Source: Aquisphaera giovannonii
Lineage (GTDB): Bacteria > Planctomycetota > Planctomycetia > Isosphaerales > Isosphaeraceae
Length of the DNA stretch: 64,000 nt
Direction: 5' to 3'
Assembly: GCF_008087625.1 (NCBI RefSeq)
Contig: NZ_CP042997.1
Span: forward strand, 5,580,001 to 5,644,000
In this document: positions 2,556 to 26,103 of the stretch, piece after piece
Layout of the letters: each line of letters starts with the position of its first letter
Numbering within the stretch: the first letter of the stretch is position 1
Made by a program: the position numbers and the translations under genes
The notes under the pieces: generated by a model
The model's input: the letters and a program-made list of their open reading frames with translations, nothing else
What the model was told of the DNA's origin: nothing
The model's database searches: none

Positions 2556-3902
2556 TCAATCGAGCGACGCCGGCCGGGGGCCTTCCGGCGTGCCGGGGGG
2601 CCGCTCGGCCAGCCCTCGCGCGAGGGCGAGGTGGGCGATGAGCTCCGCCCGCTTCCCGGCGCGGAGCGCGGCGGCCGGGTGGAGGGTCGCCACGACGTTC
2701 GCCCCGCCGGCGGCGGCCACGACCTCGCCGCGGCGCTCGGCGAACCGGAAGAGCGGCCCGAGCACCGCCCGCGCCGCCGCCGGGCCGAGGCACACCACCG
2801 CGGCCGGCCGGATCGCGGCCAGCTCCGCGAGCAGCCACGGGCGGCACGAGGCGGCCTCGCGGGGCCCGACCCGGGGGCCGTCGCCCGCGGCGCGTTTCAC
2901 CGCCTGCGTCCGGTACACCGCCGCGCGGTCCAGGCCGGCCTCGTCCAGCGCCGCGTCGAGCAGGGCGCCGGCCGCGCCGGCCAGCGGCCGGTCGCCGACC
3001 AGGACCACCCGCGCGCCCGCCGGCCCCTCCCCGAACGCCGGCGGCGAGCCCGGGCCGCACAGGCCGCACGCGGAGCAGCCGCGGGCCGCCGCCCGGAGGC
3101 CGTCGAGGTCGCGTGCGGCCGGCAGGAAGTCGGCGGCCGACCGGGCGCATCCTTCCTGGTGCGCGACCATCTCCGCCACGCGGGCCGGCGCCTCGGCCAG
3201 CAGGTCGGGGATGATGGCGGCCTCCGGGAGCGTCGCCCAGTGCCGCACCGGGAGCTCCTTCTTCATCGCTCGGACCTTGATCCGCGCCGGGTTGAACGTC
3301 GCCCGGTAGTACGTCTTCCACAGGCCCTCCAGCTCGTCCGCCGCGGGCGCGTCCTTCGCCGGCACGCCGGGGCCGAACTGGAGCCCTTCGCCGTCCCACA
3401 GCACCGACTCGTCCGGCGTCAGGATGGACCAGCGCATCTCCGGGAAGCGGCGGGCGAAGAACGGCGAGGCCCGGCGCAGGATGCGGTGGTCCGGCCGGTG
3501 CCAGGCGACGAAGTGCTCGCCGACCGCGCGGAAGCGGACGAACGCGTGCATCTTGTGGACGTCGCGGCGGACGGACTTCTCGGCGTGCAGGAGCCAGCCC
3601 ACGTCGTCGTCGGTGGCGAGGTCGAGCAGGTGCGGCTCGCCGTGGGTGAGCCGCCACAAGGCGCGGTACAGGTGCCCCCACCGCCGCGGGTCGCGGTGGC
3701 ACGCGACCGATTCCGCCAGCGCGACGAACGCCCGGGGCACGCGGAACGCCCCGCCCTCGGGCGCGGCGGGGAGCTCGTCCGCCGCGAACAGGCCGGGCGC
3801 GTTGCCGTCGTCGAAGAGGACGTCGGCCGGGGGCACGCCCGCGGCCAGCAGCACCCGGGCGGCGGTGCGCCAGGCGGCGAAGTCGGGGGCGGAGACGATC
3901 AT
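2556..3902 (-). CDS. UdgX-like uracil-DNA-binding protein fused to a TIGR03915-type DNA-metabolism domain
   Basis: A 448-residue two-part protein. The N-terminal ~250 residues resemble the TIGR03915 family, which is encoded beside a TIGR03916 radical SAM protein and is suspected to act in DNA repair or modification. The C-terminal part resembles UdgX / family 4 uracil-DNA glycosylases: a cysteine cluster GCSACGLC (about 274), GEGPAG (about 287), SCRPWL, VVCLG, and a late motif VATLHPAAALRA. The cysteines fit an Fe-S cluster. The KRRIH loop that marks true UdgX is replaced by KRAAG, so covalent uracil-DNA trapping is doubtful. The ATG at 3902 overlaps the stop of the upstream radical SAM gene (ATGA), indicating translational coupling. 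Confidence 0.75.
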   Translation of the reverse strand: MIVSAPDFAAWRTAARVLLAAGVPPADVLFDDGNAPGLFAADELPAAPEGGAFRVPRAFVALAESVACHRDPRRWGHLYRALWRLTHGEPHLLDLATDDDVGWLLHAEKSVRRDVHKMHAFVRFRAVGEHFVAWHRPDHRILRRASPFFARRFPEMRWSILTPDESVLWDGEGLQFGPGVPAKDAPAADELEGLWKTYYRATFNPARIKVRAMKKELPVRHWATLPEAAIIPDLLAEAPARVAEMVAHQEGCARSAADFLPAARDLDGLRAAARGCSACGLCGPGSPPAFGEGPAGARVVLVGDRPLAGAAGALLDAALDEAGLDRAAVYRTQAVKRAAGDGPRVGPREAASCRPWLLAELAAIRPAAVVCLGPAAARAVLGPLFRFAERRGEVVAAAGGANVVATLHPAAALRAGKRAELIAHLALARGLAERPPGTPEGPRPASLD

Positions 3903-5122
3903 GCGTCGTCCAGGTGGTCGAACAGGGTCGGCTGCACGAGCTTCTTCTTCAGGCCGACCGCGTCGAGGAGGCGCACGGTCGGGTTGTGGTCGCCGGCGAG
4001 CACGAACGGGGCGGCGGCCTTCCAGTTCACCTTCAGCTTGCGCAGGTCGTCGGTCGTCAGCCCGTGGTGCCGGCGGATCGCCAGGATGCGATTGACGTTC
4101 CGCACCCCGACGCCGGGGATGCGCAGGAGCAGCTCGCGGGGGGCGGTATTCACGTCCACCGGGAACCGGTCGCGGTTGGCCAAGGCCCACGCCAGCTTCG
4201 GGTCCATGTCCAGCGCCAGGTTCGCGCCCGGGGCGACCACCTCGGCCACGTCGAAGCCGTAGAAGCGGAGCAGCCAGTCGGCCTGGTACAGCCGGTGCTC
4301 GCGCATCAGCGGCGGGCGGAGCGCGGGCAGCCGGGCGTCGGCGTGCGGGGTCGGGCTGTAGGCCGAGTAATAGACGCGGCGTAGCCGCTGGGTGCGGTAC
4401 AGCTCGTCGGCGGTCGCCAGGATGGTGCCGTCCGCGGTCGGCGTCGCGCCGACGACCATCTGCGTGCTCTGCCCGGCCGGGGCGAACGCCGGCGCCTTCA
4501 GCCCGGCCTTCCGGTCGGCCGCGTGCTCGGCGATCCCCTCGGCCACCACGTTCATCGTGCCGTCGATGTCCTCGCGCGTCTTCTCCGGGGCGAGGAGCTG
4601 CAAGTCCTGGCTCGTCGGCAGCTCGATGTTCGCGCTCAGCCGGTCGGCCCAGAGTCCCGCCTCCGCGACCAGCTCGGCGGACGCGCCGGGGATCAGCTTG
4701 AGGTGGATGTACCCCCCGAACCCGTGGTCCTCGCGCAGCCCGCGGGCGACCGCGACGAGCTGCTCCATCGTGCCGTCCACGCTGCCGACGATGCCGCTGC
4801 TGAGGAACAGCCCCTCGATGTAGTTGCGGCGGTAGAAATCGATGGTGAGGCCGATCACCTCGGCCACGGTGAACCGCGCCCGCGGGGTGTCGCTCGACAC
4901 CCGGTTGACGCAGAACCGGCAGTCGTACACGCAGTAGTTCGTGAGCAGCAATTTGAGCAGCGACACGCACCGGCCGTCGGGCGTGTAGCTGTGGCAGATC
5001 CCCATCCCCTCCGTCGACCCGAGCCGGCTGTCCCGACGCTTCGTGGCGCTCCCGCTGCTCGCGCACGAGGCGTCGTACTTCGCCGCATCGGCCAGGATGT
5101 CGAGCTTTCGGCGGATGTCCAT
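3899..5122 (-). CDS. Putative DNA modification/repair radical SAM protein (TIGR03916-like)
   Basis: A 407-residue radical SAM enzyme. The cluster motif CVYDCRFC has cysteines at residues 64, 68 and 71, the CxxxCxxC pattern that binds the 4Fe-4S cluster and S-adenosylmethionine. A helix-hairpin-helix segment (NTAPRELLLRIPGVGVRNVN, about 323-342) suggests DNA contact. The layout and the coupled partner match the TIGR03916/TIGR03915 pair, for which a role in DNA repair or modification is proposed but the reaction is not established. It is the first gene of the two-gene operon and its stop overlaps the start of the partner. Start chosen at the ATG giving MDIRRKLDIL. Confidence 0.85.
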   Translation of the reverse strand: MDIRRKLDILADAAKYDASCASSGSATKRRDSRLGSTEGMGICHSYTPDGRCVSLLKLLLTNYCVYDCRFCVNRVSSDTPRARFTVAEVIGLTIDFYRRNYIEGLFLSSGIVGSVDGTMEQLVAVARGLREDHGFGGYIHLKLIPGASAELVAEAGLWADRLSANIELPTSQDLQLLAPEKTREDIDGTMNVVAEGIAEHAADRKAGLKAPAFAPAGQSTQMVVGATPTADGTILATADELYRTQRLRRVYYSAYSPTPHADARLPALRPPLMREHRLYQADWLLRFYGFDVAEVVAPGANLALDMDPKLAWALANRDRFPVDVNTAPRELLLRIPGVGVRNVNRILAIRRHHGLTTDDLRKLKVNWKAAAPFVLAGDHNPTVRLLDAVGLKKKLVQPTLFDHLDDA

Positions 5123-6303: not shown

Positions 6304-6398
6304 CAGAATGACCCCGTTGGCTCCCCCGTTGGCTCCCTCCCAGAATGACCCCGTTGGCTCCTTCCCGTTGGCTCCCTCAGAATGACCCCGTTGGCTCC
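6304..6398 (-). repeat. GAGCCAACGGGGTCATTCTG repeat cluster, left (three full and two partial copies)
   Basis: Three full copies, read on this strand as CAGAATGACCCCGTTGGCTC, start at 6304, 6341 and 6378. Two short pieces, CCGTTGGCTCCCT, lie between them. The same unit occurs in the opposite orientation in a larger cluster at 11303-11563. The spacing is short and irregular and there is no spacer set, so this is a tandem repeat and not a CRISPR array. Confidence 0.85.
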
Positions 6399-6422
6399 CT
6401 TTGGTCCATGGCGCCCGCTTCC

Positions 6423-7648: not shown

Positions 7649-8161
7649 ATGGCCGTCGCGCACGGCGGGACGTCGAAGCCCACGAGGAAGCAGGTGACTC
7701 CGAAGTCCAGGTCCGAGACAAAGCCTTCGCCGCCGGCCGATTCGGCGAGCCCGCGCCCGGTACCGCGGGCCCCCGCGAGCTACTTCTCCCTGGTGGAGGA
7801 ATTCCGGCTCGAACGCATCCGGGACGACGACCATCTCGCCCGTGCCCTGGCGGTGGTCGATCGCTTGATGGCTCGCGACCTCGACGAGGGAGAGCAATCG
7901 TATCTGGACGCGCTGGTCGACCTCATCGAAGTCTACGAGGAGAAGGCCTACCCGATCCCCGCCGCATCGGAGAGCGAAGTCCTTGAGGAACTGATGGGCC
8001 AGCGCAAGCTGACTGAGACGGCGCTGGCGGAGCAGACCGGCATCGCCCAATCCACCATCTCCGACGTCCTGAGGGGCGAGCGGGAGCTCACCAAGGACCA
8101 TGTGGTCACCCTCGCGAAATTCTTCCACGTCTCGCCGCAGGTCTTCCTGCCCGGGACGTGA
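7649..8161 (+). CDS. HigA-like HTH antitoxin/regulator, apparently orphan
   Basis: A 170-residue protein with a C-terminal helix-turn-helix: LMGQRKLTETALAEQTGIAQ, STISDVLRGERELTKDH and VVTLAKFFHVSPQVFLPG, typical of HigA antitoxins of the XRE class. The middle part (LARALAVVDRLMARDLDEGE, QSYLDALVDLIEVYEEKAYP) is the usual HigA N-domain. The first ~45 residues are Pro/Ser-rich and may be an extension from an early start. No HigB toxin frame is visible immediately upstream or downstream, so it could be an orphan or a regulator of the island. It converges on the HerA gene. Confidence 0.8.
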   Translation: MAVAHGGTSKPTRKQVTPKSRSETKPSPPADSASPRPVPRAPASYFSLVEEFRLERIRDDDHLARALAVVDRLMARDLDEGEQSYLDALVDLIEVYEEKAYPIPAASESEVLEELMGQRKLTETALAEQTGIAQSTISDVLRGERELTKDHVVTLAKFFHVSPQVFLPGT

Positions 8162-8389
8162 ATCGCCGACGCGGCGGGGGTCGTCCGTGGGTGTGACTCC
8201 CCGTTGTCAGGGCTGAGTCCGCCAAAGGCCGGCGAAATGAGCTGACCGCAATATCGGTTCCTAACCACCTTGACCTGCCCCAGCTTCGGTGGCTTACCTG
8301 GTGATATAGGAATGTCCCCGTTTCGGTACTCTATCCGGAACGATGTTCTCTTTTGATGTGCGCTGGCCCTGCGGTTGTACTCTGCCGCG

Positions 8390-10141
8390 TCACTCATTGA
8401 CTCTCGTCTGACGCCGCAGTGTCTCTACTGCCTCTGCTATCAAATCTGCATTGGGTTTACAAGTGTTCCACTCCTTCCAAAATTGTCTAGTGCCACTGCT
8501 TGGATGAATAGCAGGTTTGTCGAGCTTGATACGTGTGGGCAACAGAACTGAGTCGCCTAACATTAAAGCCTCTCCCGTATCCAGCATAGGTAAAATTTCC
8601 GTCAGGCCGGCCATCGAATCTGGCATTAGACGGCGAACGACGGCTTGGTCAGCGTCGTTCGTGAGTCGGAGTATTAGAAAATTGTTGCATTGGCTAAGAA
8701 TTGTCCTACTTACGTCCGATGGTCTTTGGCTCACGACCACGAGAGAAACACCATACTTTCGCCCTTCTTTTGCAATCCTTTCAAAGGTCGCTAAGGCCTG
8801 TCGTTCGACGGCGTCGGCCCCATCTTTCACGGGCAAATACAAGTGAGCTTCGTCGCAGACCAATGTAAAGGGCGTTCGGCTGTCAGCTCTTTGCCAGAAC
8901 TGTAGGTCATAGAGAAGTCGTGCGAACGTGCCTGCGACTATCGGTAGGACATCGGAGGGTACTTCCGAGAAGTCCACAATCTTGATCCCTTTGCGGGCGT
9001 GGTCAGAGCAGAGCAGCTGACTAAGTTGCTTGGCTAGCCATCCGTACTGTTGCGCGTACGAGGGAGGCTGAAACATGAAGCCATATCTTCGGTCTTCAAG
9101 TTTAGCCTGTAAACGAGAGATAAATCTAGTCAGTCGACCCTCCCATTCACCCTTAACTGGATTGTTGTTTGCCCCAGTTCCTTTCTTCGTGTCATCAAGC
9201 AACAGTGCTTCTAGTAAATCTTTGATCTCATAAGGAATAGGAGAATCTACTGTAAAGGTTTTGGCTACAGAATCTTTCCCTTCATTCTCGAGTGTCTTCT
9301 CTTTCAGCATTCGTACGTGTGTCGTAAATCGCGACGCCTGGTTTGGCGCGTTATTATCACTCCGATCCAAGATCATGGAAAGCATTTCATCCCGGTTAAG
9401 AAGCCAGTACGGCAAGAATATAATCCCGCTGTCAGGAGACATTAAATCCCCTGGTCCGGCTATCCTGAAGCCCTGACAATACCCCTCTTTGCCAGCCAGC
9501 GGTTGATACTCGCCGTGCATATCAAGTACTATAAGGTTTGGGTGACGGAGTTTTTTTGCCCTCTCAAGTATTAAAGCGACCGTCCAGCTTTTGCCCGAGC
9601 CAGTGCTGCCGAGAATCGAGGCGTGTCGTTGAAAAAATCGGTCTCCGCTCGCTATAGCCGTCGCGTCTGGGTCAATGATGAATCTTCCTAGCTGAAGCTG
9701 CTCTTCTTTTGCTATATCTGCTCCAAGCAGGCCCATGAAACGTTGAAGGTTGGCGGCCTCAATCAGATAGCAATCTCTACCAATCTGGGGAAAGGAATCG
9801 GCACCTCTCTTGAAGCGATTCTTTTCAGCACCATCTACTGTCCTGAATGTACCTATCAGAATTACGCGAACCAAGTCGTTGGGCTGCAATCCCAATTCAA
9901 TCTCAGAACCAGAATCTCCTACTGCGTCGAGCATGCCTTCACGAAGTGTACGCGTGACGCGCTCGACGATGCCAATCAGATATTCCTGCTCTGTAGCACC
10001 CCGGATCGCAATCAATTCGCCGATACCGACGCGGGTGACAACGGATTGATTGGCCGCATCGATCAATACGCGGCTCGTGTCGACTGCGGCGACATGCCCG
10101 ATTGAATCGTCCTCGTTGAACTGTAAGGCTGGTTTAATCAT
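8390..10141 (-). CDS. HerA-type ATPase of a SIR2-HerA antiphage system
   Basis: A 583-residue HerA/FtsK-like ATPase. The N-terminal HAS-barrel region comes first (GHVAAVDTSRVLIDAA, IGIVERVTRTL). Walker A is GSTGSGKS (178-185), then LIVLDMHGEY. Walker B is FTLVCDE (425-431) with EAHLYLP, followed by VVSQRPSD (about 470-476) and the sensor-like LRLTNDADQ. HerA forms hexamers that translocate DNA; next to a SIR2 protein it forms a defence complex that depletes NAD or cuts nucleic acid on infection (established for SIR2-HerA, also called Nezha). ATG 10141 overlaps the SIR2 stop (ATGA). Base composition is far more AT-rich than the flanks, a strong sign of transfer. Confidence 0.9.
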   Translation of the reverse strand: MIKPALQFNEDDSIGHVAAVDTSRVLIDAANQSVVTRVGIGELIAIRGATEQEYLIGIVERVTRTLREGMLDAVGDSGSEIELGLQPNDLVRVILIGTFRTVDGAEKNRFKRGADSFPQIGRDCYLIEAANLQRFMGLLGADIAKEEQLQLGRFIIDPDATAIASGDRFFQRHASILGSTGSGKSWTVALILERAKKLRHPNLIVLDMHGEYQPLAGKEGYCQGFRIAGPGDLMSPDSGIIFLPYWLLNRDEMLSMILDRSDNNAPNQASRFTTHVRMLKEKTLENEGKDSVAKTFTVDSPIPYEIKDLLEALLLDDTKKGTGANNNPVKGEWEGRLTRFISRLQAKLEDRRYGFMFQPPSYAQQYGWLAKQLSQLLCSDHARKGIKIVDFSEVPSDVLPIVAGTFARLLYDLQFWQRADSRTPFTLVCDEAHLYLPVKDGADAVERQALATFERIAKEGRKYGVSLVVVSQRPSDVSRTILSQCNNFLILRLTNDADQAVVRRLMPDSMAGLTEILPMLDTGEALMLGDSVLLPTRIKLDKPAIHPSSGTRQFWKEWNTCKPNADLIAEAVETLRRQTRVNE

Positions 10142-11199
10142 GGCTCCAAGACATCCTGAATGAAATGGCCCAGGTCCCATATTGAGGCGCCCGGGATTGA
10201 TTCGACACCATTTTTGCTGATGACCTTTGTGCCTAGGTGGTCGGGTGCCGCGCACAAGGCTGTCAGCCGGCCCGAGCCTTTAGCCAACTTCTCGGCATGT
10301 GGAGTGAGACTATGCGTTAGCACCAATGCTGGCTTTCCTCTTTCAAGTTCTGACTCAAGGTGGGTTTGGAGGTGCGCGTCATTGAAGCCAAAGCCCAGTA
10401 TCAGATATCTGGATGCCTTATCGATTTCACGATTGGCGCGCTCGCGATGTGAATCAAACGGCTTGTTATAGCCGTCGCGATACTTGTTTAGACCGGGTGT
10501 AATAATAAGTCGTTGGAGACCCAATGGGAAAGGGCAGCGGACAGGTCCAGAATGATGCTGATACCAATCGAGGCTTCCGTGAGGCTTTAGTACGACGGCA
10601 TGCTTGCTGATGTTTAATTTTACACCTGTCTTTGTTTTGTCTATCCTTTTGCAGAGGAGCAGGTGAGAAGATTCTGGATCCAGGCGACCAAAATGTTGGC
10701 CTACAAAGAGCGTATTCAAAGAAAGGCCGGATTGCTCTACGGCTACCTCGACGAGTCGATCGTAGTTTGTAGTTACGATAGGAATTCCGTTCTCAGGCTT
10801 TAGTAGATGTGGTATAAGTCTGGTGAGCCGAAGCGTTTTGTTGCCATTAACAACTTGCTCAATGACTTGCCTTTCCGCCTCTAGGATTAATTTGCTTGTC
10901 AACTCGACGATGACTGCTTCAAGTGCGTCACTCGGTCTGTTTCGTGACAGGGCGGATTCGAGGTCAATGTTATTTTTCAAATCGCTCGCAATGGGAGACC
11001 ACTCGGGTTGGACTTCGCTCGTGATTCGATTCGGTACGTTCTCTAGTAGATGGTCAGCCAGCTTACCCATACCTGGAATGCCTTCTGCTGCAGAGAGGCC
11101 AGATCCCACAATGATGGCCAAGCCATCACTGAAATGGCCTTGCAGCTGCCGCTTGAACTCATTTAGATCCATTGTGCGATCGGTCGATTCCCAAGACAT
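10138..11199 (-). CDS. SIR2-like NADase subunit of a SIR2-HerA antiphage system
   Basis: A 353-residue SIR2-fold protein. Motifs in order: VGSGLSAAEGIPGM (31-44, the NAD-binding GSGxS loop), VTTNYDRLVE (142-151), LKPHGSLDWY (205-214, with the catalytic His equivalent) and LGFGFNDAHL (268-277). Defence SIR2 proteins hydrolyse NAD+ when triggered by phage, causing abortive infection. The Asn (TNYD) and His (PHGS) needed for NADase activity are present. It is the first gene of the pair and is coupled to HerA through ATGA. An internal ATG at 11172 (MDLNEFKRQL) is an alternative start. Like HerA it is much lower in GC than neighbouring genes. Confidence 0.88.
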   Translation of the reverse strand: MSWESTDRTMDLNEFKRQLQGHFSDGLAIIVGSGLSAAEGIPGMGKLADHLLENVPNRITSEVQPEWSPIASDLKNNIDLESALSRNRPSDALEAVIVELTSKLILEAERQVIEQVVNGNKTLRLTRLIPHLLKPENGIPIVTTNYDRLVEVAVEQSGLSLNTLFVGQHFGRLDPESSHLLLCKRIDKTKTGVKLNISKHAVVLKPHGSLDWYQHHSGPVRCPFPLGLQRLIITPGLNKYRDGYNKPFDSHRERANREIDKASRYLILGFGFNDAHLQTHLESELERGKPALVLTHSLTPHAEKLAKGSGRLTALCAAPDHLGTKVISKNGVESIPGASIWDLGHFIQDVLEP

Positions 11200-11226
11200 G
11201 GGATTTGGCTTTTCCAGCCGCGGTTG

Positions 11227-11235
11227 ACTATAGCA
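11227..11235 (-). promoter_or_regulatory. Possible extended -10 promoter of the SIR2-HerA operon
   Basis: On the minus strand the sequence reads TGCTATAGT, an extended -10 (TGn plus TATAGT), about 28 bases before the SIR2 start. A TTGAAA lies further upstream but at about 22 bases spacing, too far for a standard -35. Only the extended -10 supports this call. Confidence 0.35.
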
Positions 11236-11302
11236 TCCTATCAGTCGGGGGCTTTTTCAAGGCTTCGGAAAAAATAGACGGAGATGGCCAGAAAGTGTGG
11301 GA

Positions 11303-11563
11303 GCCAACGGGGCAGGAGCCAACGAGGAGCCAACGGGGAGAGGGGCCAACGGGGTCATTCTGGAGGAGCCAACGGGGTCGGAGCCAACGGGGTCATTCTG
11401 GTCACGGGGAGCCAACGGGGTCATTCTGGGGAGCCAACGGGGTCAGGGGGAGCAAACGGGGGAGCCAAGGGGGGGGAGCCAAAGGGGTCAGGGGGGGAGC
11501 CAAAGGGGTCAGAGCGGGGGGGAGCCAAAGGGGTCATGGGGAGCCAAAGGGGTCATTCTGGTC
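11303..11563 (+). repeat. GAGCCAACGGGGTCATTCTG repeat cluster, right (about a dozen copies)
   Basis: The unit GAGCCAACGGGGTCATTCTG recurs with truncated forms (GGAGCCAACGGGG) and a drift to GAGCCAAAGGGGTCA toward the right end. Copies are packed with 0-15 intervening bases. The orientation is opposite to the cluster at 6304-6398, so the two clusters face each other across the SIR2-HerA region. All three forward frames stay open through the array, which follows from its lack of stop codons and is not a sign of coding. Confidence 0.88.
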
Positions 11564-11598: not shown

Positions 11599-12225
11599 TC
11601 AGCTGTGAGGGAGCCCCGCGATTCGGAAGTCGGCGCCCTCGGTAGTGTCCGGCGTCTCGCCTTCGGGGCGGAGCTCGGGGTCGAGGGCTTCGAACGGGTT
11701 GATCCGCACGGACCGGTCGGGGAAGCGGGCGACGATCTCGAGCTGGCCGCCCATGGCCTCGATGAAGCCCCGCAGCGTGCTCAGGTCCATGTCGCTGCGG
11801 CGCTCGAGCCTGGAGATGGCGGCCTGGTTGACGTGCAGGGTCTTCGCCAGCTCCGCCTGCGTCTGCTCGCGGGCCTCGCGCAACTGGCGGAGAGTCGCCT
11901 CCTCGGCGATCAGCTCCGCCGCCCGGTCGCGGACGGCTTGCTGCTCGGCCGCCGGCAGGGTGGCCAGGTCATCTTCGAGCCGCGTCGTCTTTCGTGCCTC
12001 ATTGCCCCAGGCGTTCGAGGTGCCGGCGGAATCGCTCGTCGGCGATGGGGATGAAGGTCCTGTACCAGCGCCTGTCGCCCGCTTGTTGCCGCCGATCAAT
12101 GGGATAGCCGCCCGATTCGGATCGAAGGCGAAGAGGAGTCGCCAGGGATCGTCCTGGTATTGCACCCGCCGTTCTTTGATACTGGCGAGCCCCGAACCCT
12201 GGTGAGGCCGCTGGCGCTCGATCAC
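11599..12225 (-). CDS. XRE/HTH antitoxin in an ORF fused to a toxin remnant
   Basis: One open frame of 208 residues from a GTG at 12225. The second half (from about residue 75) is an XRE-type antitoxin: LREAREQTQAELAKTLHVNQ, AAISRLERRSDMDLSTLRGF, then FIEAMGGQLEIVARFPD and VRINPFEAL. This is the usual partner of RelE-like toxins of the phage-derived Gp49/HigB class. No in-frame ATG opens the antitoxin; an ATG at the expected ATGA junction (11999-12002) is out of frame. The antitoxin may be made from a non-canonical start or as a fusion with the toxin remnant. The HTH itself looks intact. It lies downstream of the HNH gene, whose stop overlaps the GTG. Confidence 0.6.
   Translation of the reverse strand: MIERQRPHQGSGLASIKERRVQYQDDPWRLLFAFDPNRAAIPLIGGNKRATGAGTGPSSPSPTSDSAGTSNAWGNEARKTTRLEDDLATLPAAEQQAVRDRAAELIAEEATLRQLREAREQTQAELAKTLHVNQAAISRLERRSDMDLSTLRGFIEAMGGQLEIVARFPDRSVRINPFEALDPELRPEGETPDTTEGADFRIAGLPHS
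11999..12225 (-). pseudogene. Truncated, frameshifted RelE/HigB-type toxin
   Basis: The first frame gives RRVQYQDDPWRLLFAFDPNR and AAIPLIGGNK, the typical core of these toxins. After GGNK the expected continuation, DRRWYRTFIPIAD followed by ERFRRHLERLGQ and a stop at 11999, is present in another frame. A net one-base deletion (or two-base insertion) near 12085 would explain it. About 40-50 N-terminal residues that the family normally has are also missing, because the HNH gene ends exactly where the remnant begins. The toxin should be inactive. Confidence 0.75.
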
Positions 12226-12623
12226 GGGTATAGCTGGAGCTTCATCCAGGAGATCCTCGCGATCCGCTGGACGTCCCGATTCCTCTGCAGGGCCGCCACG
12301 GCGACGCGACCGATCGCCGTCGGGCCGCGGATGGAGCCCTCGTCGCGATCGACCTGGAAATGTTCATTCCAGACGTCGAGCCGCGGATGGAAGAGCGGGG
12401 CGACTTCCTCGGTCACCTCGTCTTTCGCGTGCTGCCGGTCGGACTTGAACAGGTTGCACGCCCGGCAGGCCAGGGCCAGGTTGGACTCCTCGTCGGAGCC
12501 CCCTCTCGAGCTGGGCACGATGTGCTCCACCTCGAACGGGAGATTGAAGATGACCTCCGGGGCTCGGCAGTATTCGCAACGGTGGCCGGCTCGCTCGGCG
12601 ACGGCCGCGTACGGCTTGCTCAC
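12222..12623 (-). CDS. HNH endonuclease
   Basis: A 133-residue HNH nuclease. A zinc-binding CEYC pair is followed by FEVEHIVPSSRGGSDEESNL (catalytic His in VEHIVP, Asn in SNL) and the second pair CRAC with NLFKSD. The C-terminal extension (APLFHPRLDVWNEHF, TAIGRVAVAALQRNR) is usual for small HNH proteins of cyanobacteria and planctomycetes. GTG start at 12623 overlaps the stop of the upstream small gene (GTGA), so the two are co-translated. The substrate is unknown; many relatives stand alone outside restriction systems. Confidence 0.85.
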   Translation of the reverse strand: MSKPYAAVAERAGHRCEYCRAPEVIFNLPFEVEHIVPSSRGGSDEESNLALACRACNLFKSDRQHAKDEVTEEVAPLFHPRLDVWNEHFQVDRDEGSIRGPTAIGRVAVAALQRNRDVQRIARISWMKLQLYP

Positions 12624-12982: not shown

Positions 12983-13250
12983 CGCGCACCTCATTCCTTC
13001 ATGTCCAGATTCTACCTGGGGCCTCGGCGATCCGCGACACCATCAGCCGGCGTGGTTGCGCCACGATCCTATAGGGACGGTGAATAGGGGGATGCCAGGA
13101 CTTTCTCGATGCCTTCGGCGATCCAGGTAAAATAGGCTGTCTGATGGTCATGGCGTTCGGCCTCATCGGGGTTCGCGCCGGGGGGCGATCGGGCTATGCT
13201 CCGGGCATTCAGGAATTCCACACCTTCGACTTGCGGACGGAGCCGCCACG

Positions 13251-26030: not shown

Positions 26031-26103
26031 GCCACCTTAGCTCAGTCGGCAGAGCGCAGCTTTCGTAAAGCTGAAGTCCAGGGTTCGAGTCCCTGAGGTG
26101 GCT
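26031..26103 (+). tRNA. tRNA-Thr (anticodon CGT)
   Basis: A 73-nt cloverleaf. The acceptor stem GCCACCT pairs with AGGTGGC (discriminator T). The D-arm is GCTC-AGTCGGCA-GAGC, the anticodon arm CAGCT-TTCGTAA-AGCTG with anticodon CGT, and the T-arm CAGGG-TTCGAGT-CCCTG. CCA is not encoded. A nearly identical copy is at 27674-27746; the two differ only in the D-loop. Confidence 0.95.

Follow-up and report, generated by a model that had tools for sequence, protein, structure and literature searches.

A putative SIR2-HerA antiphage gene pair, probably gained laterally, in the planctomycete Aquisphaera giovannonii

Results

A coupled SIR2-HerA gene pair

The window studied here, a 64-kb stretch of the genome of Aquisphaera giovannonii, carries on its minus strand two adjacent genes that very probably form a two-gene SIR2-HerA (Nezha-like) antiphage system, acquired by lateral transfer as a compact cassette. 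The features referred to below are the following:

10138-11199, minus strand: gene for a predicted SIR2-family NADase effector, 353 aa (PADLOC SIR2 PDLC04082, Pfam SIR2_2)
8390-10141, minus strand: gene for a HerA-type ATPase, 583 aa, start ATG at 10141 (PADLOC HerA PDLC04105, Pfam DUF87)
10138-10141, minus strand: ATGA stop-start overlap between the SIR2 and HerA genes, read from the sequence
8236-11285, no strand: low-GC segment containing the pair, with maximum-likelihood edges

The pair occupies positions 8390-11199, with SIR2 first in the reading direction and HerA after it, and both frames are intact, showing neither stops nor frameshifts. The stop codon of SIR2 (TGA, 10138-10140) overlaps the ATG of HerA (10139-10141) in the form of an ATGA, as expected from the translational coupling that a previous sequence-only reading of this DNA had proposed, and exactly the same overlap was found in 25 of 88 related pairs. 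A longer HerA frame of 621 aa, starting at GTG 10255 and overlapping SIR2 by 118 bases, was considered and ruled out, because the full-length profiles of HerA match this frame only from residues 39-43 onwards; the ATG at 10141, which gives a protein of 583 aa, was therefore taken as the start. The SIR2 protein contains the motifs GSGLS at residue 32, TNYD at 144 and KPHGS at 205, in such a way that N145 and H207 are its predicted catalytic residues. In the 583-aa numbering, HerA contains GSTGSGKS at 178 (Walker A, with K184) and CDEAH at 429 (Walker B, with D430 and E431).

Family assignment and structural comparison

The assignment of the pair to the SIR2-HerA type, already made in the sequence-only reading, was confirmed by PADLOC models matching both proteins at full length: SIR2 matched PDLC04082 over residues 10-352 of 353 (432 bits, 3.1e-130), and HerA matched positions 3-574 of the 576 of PDLC04105 (775 bits, 1.2e-233). 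The cut-offs of the narrower NCBIfam equivalogs were missed by SIR2 (SIR2_antiphage, NF042942, 32.2 of 500 bits) and by HerA (HerA_antiphage, NF042943 and NF042944, 302 of 850 bits), so the experimentally tested systems are distant; this result does not exclude membership of the wider SIR2-HerA type. The branch that holds the pair is already covered by the PADLOC models, lies outside the equivalog groups and, judging from these profile scores, may lack a directly tested member.

When solved proteins were searched by sequence, SIR2 matched the SIR2 chains of the SIR2-HerA complexes 8j4u, 8yhx and 8w9l. The TNYD and HGS motifs aligned with the best two of these chains, 8j4u and 8yhx, the catalytic residues thus aligning with those of NADase members, although the identity to any solved SIR2-HerA subunit was only around 20%, and its 353 aa compare with 381-428 aa in those subunits. 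In a structural ranking, the predicted SIR2 model (pLDDT 91.8) obtained its highest Z scores, 19-25, with 8yhx, 8w9l, 8wld, 8sub and 8j4u, followed by ThsA with 17; among solved proteins, the modelled fold thus comes nearest to SIR2 subunits from SIR2-HerA complexes. Thoeris ThsA, DSR2 and KomC have the SIR2 NADase domain in common with it, but with lower structural similarity (Z 15-17) and with different partners.

The picture is less uniform for HerA. Its best sequence matches among solved structures were 9c1m, 8ziq and 8xau, all of them DUF4297-HerA nuclease complexes, and by sequence it is somewhat nearer to the HerA of these systems than to the solved SIR2-partner HerAs. The predicted HerA model (pLDDT 81.4) matched both kinds about equally, with a Z score of 38.4 for the DUF4297-partner 8xav and of 37.4 for the SIR2-partner 8wod. 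In structural alignment, the HerAs of the DUF4297 systems (8xau, 8ziq, 9c1m) share the fold and are around 30-33% identical to that of the window; however, their effector is a Cap4-like nuclease, whereas that of the window is a SIR2 protein, the partner gene being assigned to SIR2 by both PADLOC and Pfam and not to a Cap4-like DUF4297 nuclease.

Compared with the known SIR2-HerA/Nezha systems (E. coli 8j4u, 8su9 and 8sub; PsSIR2/HerA 8w9l and 8wld; V. cholerae A103 Nezha, PMC11559045), the pair has in common the two-gene operon, the catalytic Asn and His of SIR2, the Walker A and B motifs of HerA and the best SIR2 fold match. It differs from them in a SIR2 some 30-75 residues shorter and in the sequence affinity of its HerA, and its function would be that of these relatives by analogy.

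Conservation across relatives

Searching genomes and viral contigs with the HerA alignment yielded 96 loci that encode a relative of HerA; a single SIR2 sequence used as query of the genome and viral collections gave no matches. In 88 of the 96 loci a SIR2 gene lies directly upstream of HerA. Among the eight exceptions, three loci are cut at HerA by the contig end (L152, L167 and L189), in one the match to HerA is only partial (L198), and the remaining four (L155, L156, L162 and L197), which show no adjacent SIR2, all have HerA identities below 49%. Leaving aside the loci truncated by a contig end, every relative above 49% HerA identity thus keeps the partnership. Residue conservation was scored over 89 aligned rows, the window pair included. 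SIR2 residues N145, K205, H207 and G208 and HerA residues K184, D430, E431, R461 and R473 (Walker A, Walker B and conserved arginines) were invariant in all 89 rows, and the NADase-type and ATPase motifs can thus be regarded as intact, as had been claimed.

Distribution and lateral gain

The SIR2 gene was absent from all 44 other genomes of the family searched, and is thus not carried by these relatives as a core gene. Among 392 planctomycete genomes, five others encode a full-length SIR2 with an adjoining HerA (G386, with two pairs, G159, G425, G414 and G292), and pairs were also found in the planctomycete plasmid pK2D_1 and in Pirellulaceae and Phycisphaerales MAGs. The planctomycete setting, presented as the novelty in the sequence-only reading, is therefore not new, since the phylum already has several members; a literature search of limited scope found no paper naming SIR2-HerA together with planctomycetes. 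What the window adds is a clean, full-length planctomycete member of a widespread defence type that would act by depleting NAD+.

The nearest known pair, L131 of the Pirellulaceae MAG PLA7, has the same gene order, with 54% identity in SIR2 and 71% in HerA. In both gene trees it groups as the sister of the pair studied here (support of 99/97 for SIR2 and 92/71 for HerA), which suggests that SIR2 and HerA moved as a unit. The pair of the Ca. Manganitrophus plasmid CP114562, also in the same order (43.6% identity in SIR2, 64% in HerA), adjoins a tyrosine integrase and an N-6 methylase. The hosts and surroundings of these two pairs are unlike those of the window. Further relatives are scattered over Pseudomonadota, Nitrospirota, Acidobacteriota, Bacillota and Actinomycetota, a distribution typical of a pair of defence genes that is mobile. 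A relative of SIR2 was found in 102 plasmid records, half of them conjugative; plasmid relatives adjoin integrases, methylases, helicases and restriction genes, and other relatives lie on viral contigs. The horizontal gain put forward earlier is thus well supported by the absence of the pair from the family relatives and by the trees, which place it beside the Pirellulaceae one; its age is not set by GC content.

As a separate observation, the pairs of a Citrobacter freundii plasmid (L100) and a Klebsiella plasmid (L102) are embedded among DUF499, DUF1156 and SNF2 genes, surroundings that look like a larger methylase-helicase defence island.

Base composition

The GC content of the pair is 0.499, whereas 547 windows of equal length over the rest of the 64 kb average 0.712 (sd 0.030) and never fall below 0.656, so the AT-richness of the pair relative to the neighbours, noticed beforehand, is real. 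Its dinucleotide distance was 0.157, compared with a maximum of 0.142 elsewhere in the 64 kb, and GC3 was 0.51 in both SIR2 and HerA versus 0.73-0.97 in most neighbouring frames. The best-fitting low-GC segment (8236-11285, 3.05 kb) barely exceeds the two genes.

The same comparison was made in those related loci, 70 among L103-L182, whose flanks were long enough. The GC content of the pair was below that of its flanks in 62 of the 70, across phyla, and in all 24 loci with flanks above 60% GC; over the 70 loci the difference between pair and flanks had a median of 3.8 points, a 90th percentile of 12.3 and a maximum of 25.5. The difference in the window, around 21 points, falls in the upper tail with the expected sign. 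Low GC is therefore largely a habit of the SIR2-HerA gene pair, and for this reason it dates a transfer poorly: from the earlier proposal of a recent transfer, the transfer stands, whereas its recency, which rested mainly on GC, is weakened. As a caution, the GC contrast alone is weak evidence of recent transfer for systems of this kind.

Proposed function and alternatives

The characterised SIR2-HerA system of V. cholerae restricts phages, and its immunity is abolished by the SIR2 changes N168A or H227A or by the loss of herA (PMC11559045). From characterised relatives we infer for the pair of the window NADase activity, a phage trigger, complex formation and protection against phages. In such a scheme, a HerA hexamer would hold about twelve SIR2 subunits, phage infection would activate the SIR2-HerA complex, and infected cells would probably be stopped through the destruction of NAD+ by SIR2. 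This chain of events is the best explanation, because the proteins of the window keep the residues that are needed in the characterised relatives. Regarding how the complex would work, there is a small chance that this short SIR2, of around 350 aa, paired with a HerA whose lineage has so far been solved mostly together with DUF4297 nucleases, represents a widespread branch that assembles and is activated in the DUF4297-HerA mode and not in that of the tested SIR2-HerA complexes.

The sequence affinity of HerA for the nuclease complexes 9c1m, 8ziq and 8xau also gives some ground to a different proposal, in which HerA would be a DNA-processing motor of the DUF4297 type, with DNA translocation or degradation as the main effect and SIR2 as secondary. 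This is very improbable, as SIR2 and not a nuclease is the partner in every close relative, the SIR2 active site is invariant, and the structural comparison ended in a tie between 8xav and 8wod. That the genes are a functionless remnant can be given next to no credence: their composition still differs from that of the host and no family relative searched has the pair, but a decaying copy is hard to reconcile with frames free of stops and frameshifts in which all the invariant residues and the overlap are kept.

The frequency of SIR2 relatives on plasmids, half of them conjugative, and the integrases adjoining some of them could fit with an intact pair that has plasmids or further mobile elements, not phages, as its main targets, or that serves as an addiction module for the element that carried it. 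However, relatives are also found inside islands of restriction-modification type, phage restriction is documented for a characterised system, and the pair lies on the 10.37-Mb main contig, where no partition or mobility gene was recognized beside it, all of which makes this role improbable. The antiphage SIR2-HerA system is thus the reading that we favour.

Surroundings of the pair

From position 13165 rightwards, the gene order of the window matches that of a congeneric genome (G001). To the left of this shared order, a large open frame without relation to the window is found in G001, and the stretch of the window that includes the pair is not shared. As the left neighbour at 3899-5122 was not found in the seven relatives searched either, the pair sits in a longer variable stretch. 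No target-site duplication was detected at the edges of the low-GC segment, in the sense that 8141-8390 and 11200-11320 have no direct word of at least 8 letters in common, and no tRNA insertion site lies near the pair, the only two tRNA genes being tRNA-Thr at 26031 and 27674. With respect to a possible defence island, the matches of the next genes were all of a generic kind, to HTH and HNH.

The region is flanked by degenerate tandem arrays of GGAGCCAACGGGGTCATTCTGG, one at 6304-6399 and the other, inverted relative to it, at 11290-11561, and the right edge of the low-GC segment coincides with the border of one array. The repeat unit GCCAAMGGGGTCA is present in 32 copies at about a dozen places in the genome, with 0 in a reversed control, and the longer unit GCCAAMGGGGTCATTCTG was not found in the 44 other genomes of the family. 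The arrays were considered as ends of a mobile element, an idea with no support beyond their position, and the Y1 transposase genes of the genome do not lie close to them.

Several small genes lie around the pair. An open frame at 11599-12225 joins a toxin part resembling Gp49/HigB to an antitoxin part of HTH type, and a 90% identical copy of 11618-12151 is located at G000:C1:5034043-5034577, near another repeat array. A small HNH protein encoded at 12222-12623 shows weak similarity to PtuB of Septu, with no PtuA ATPase recognized beside it. Just downstream of HerA, on the opposite strand, 7649-8161 encodes an HTH protein with weak similarity to PD-Lambda-2_B and a host-like GC3 of 0.86.
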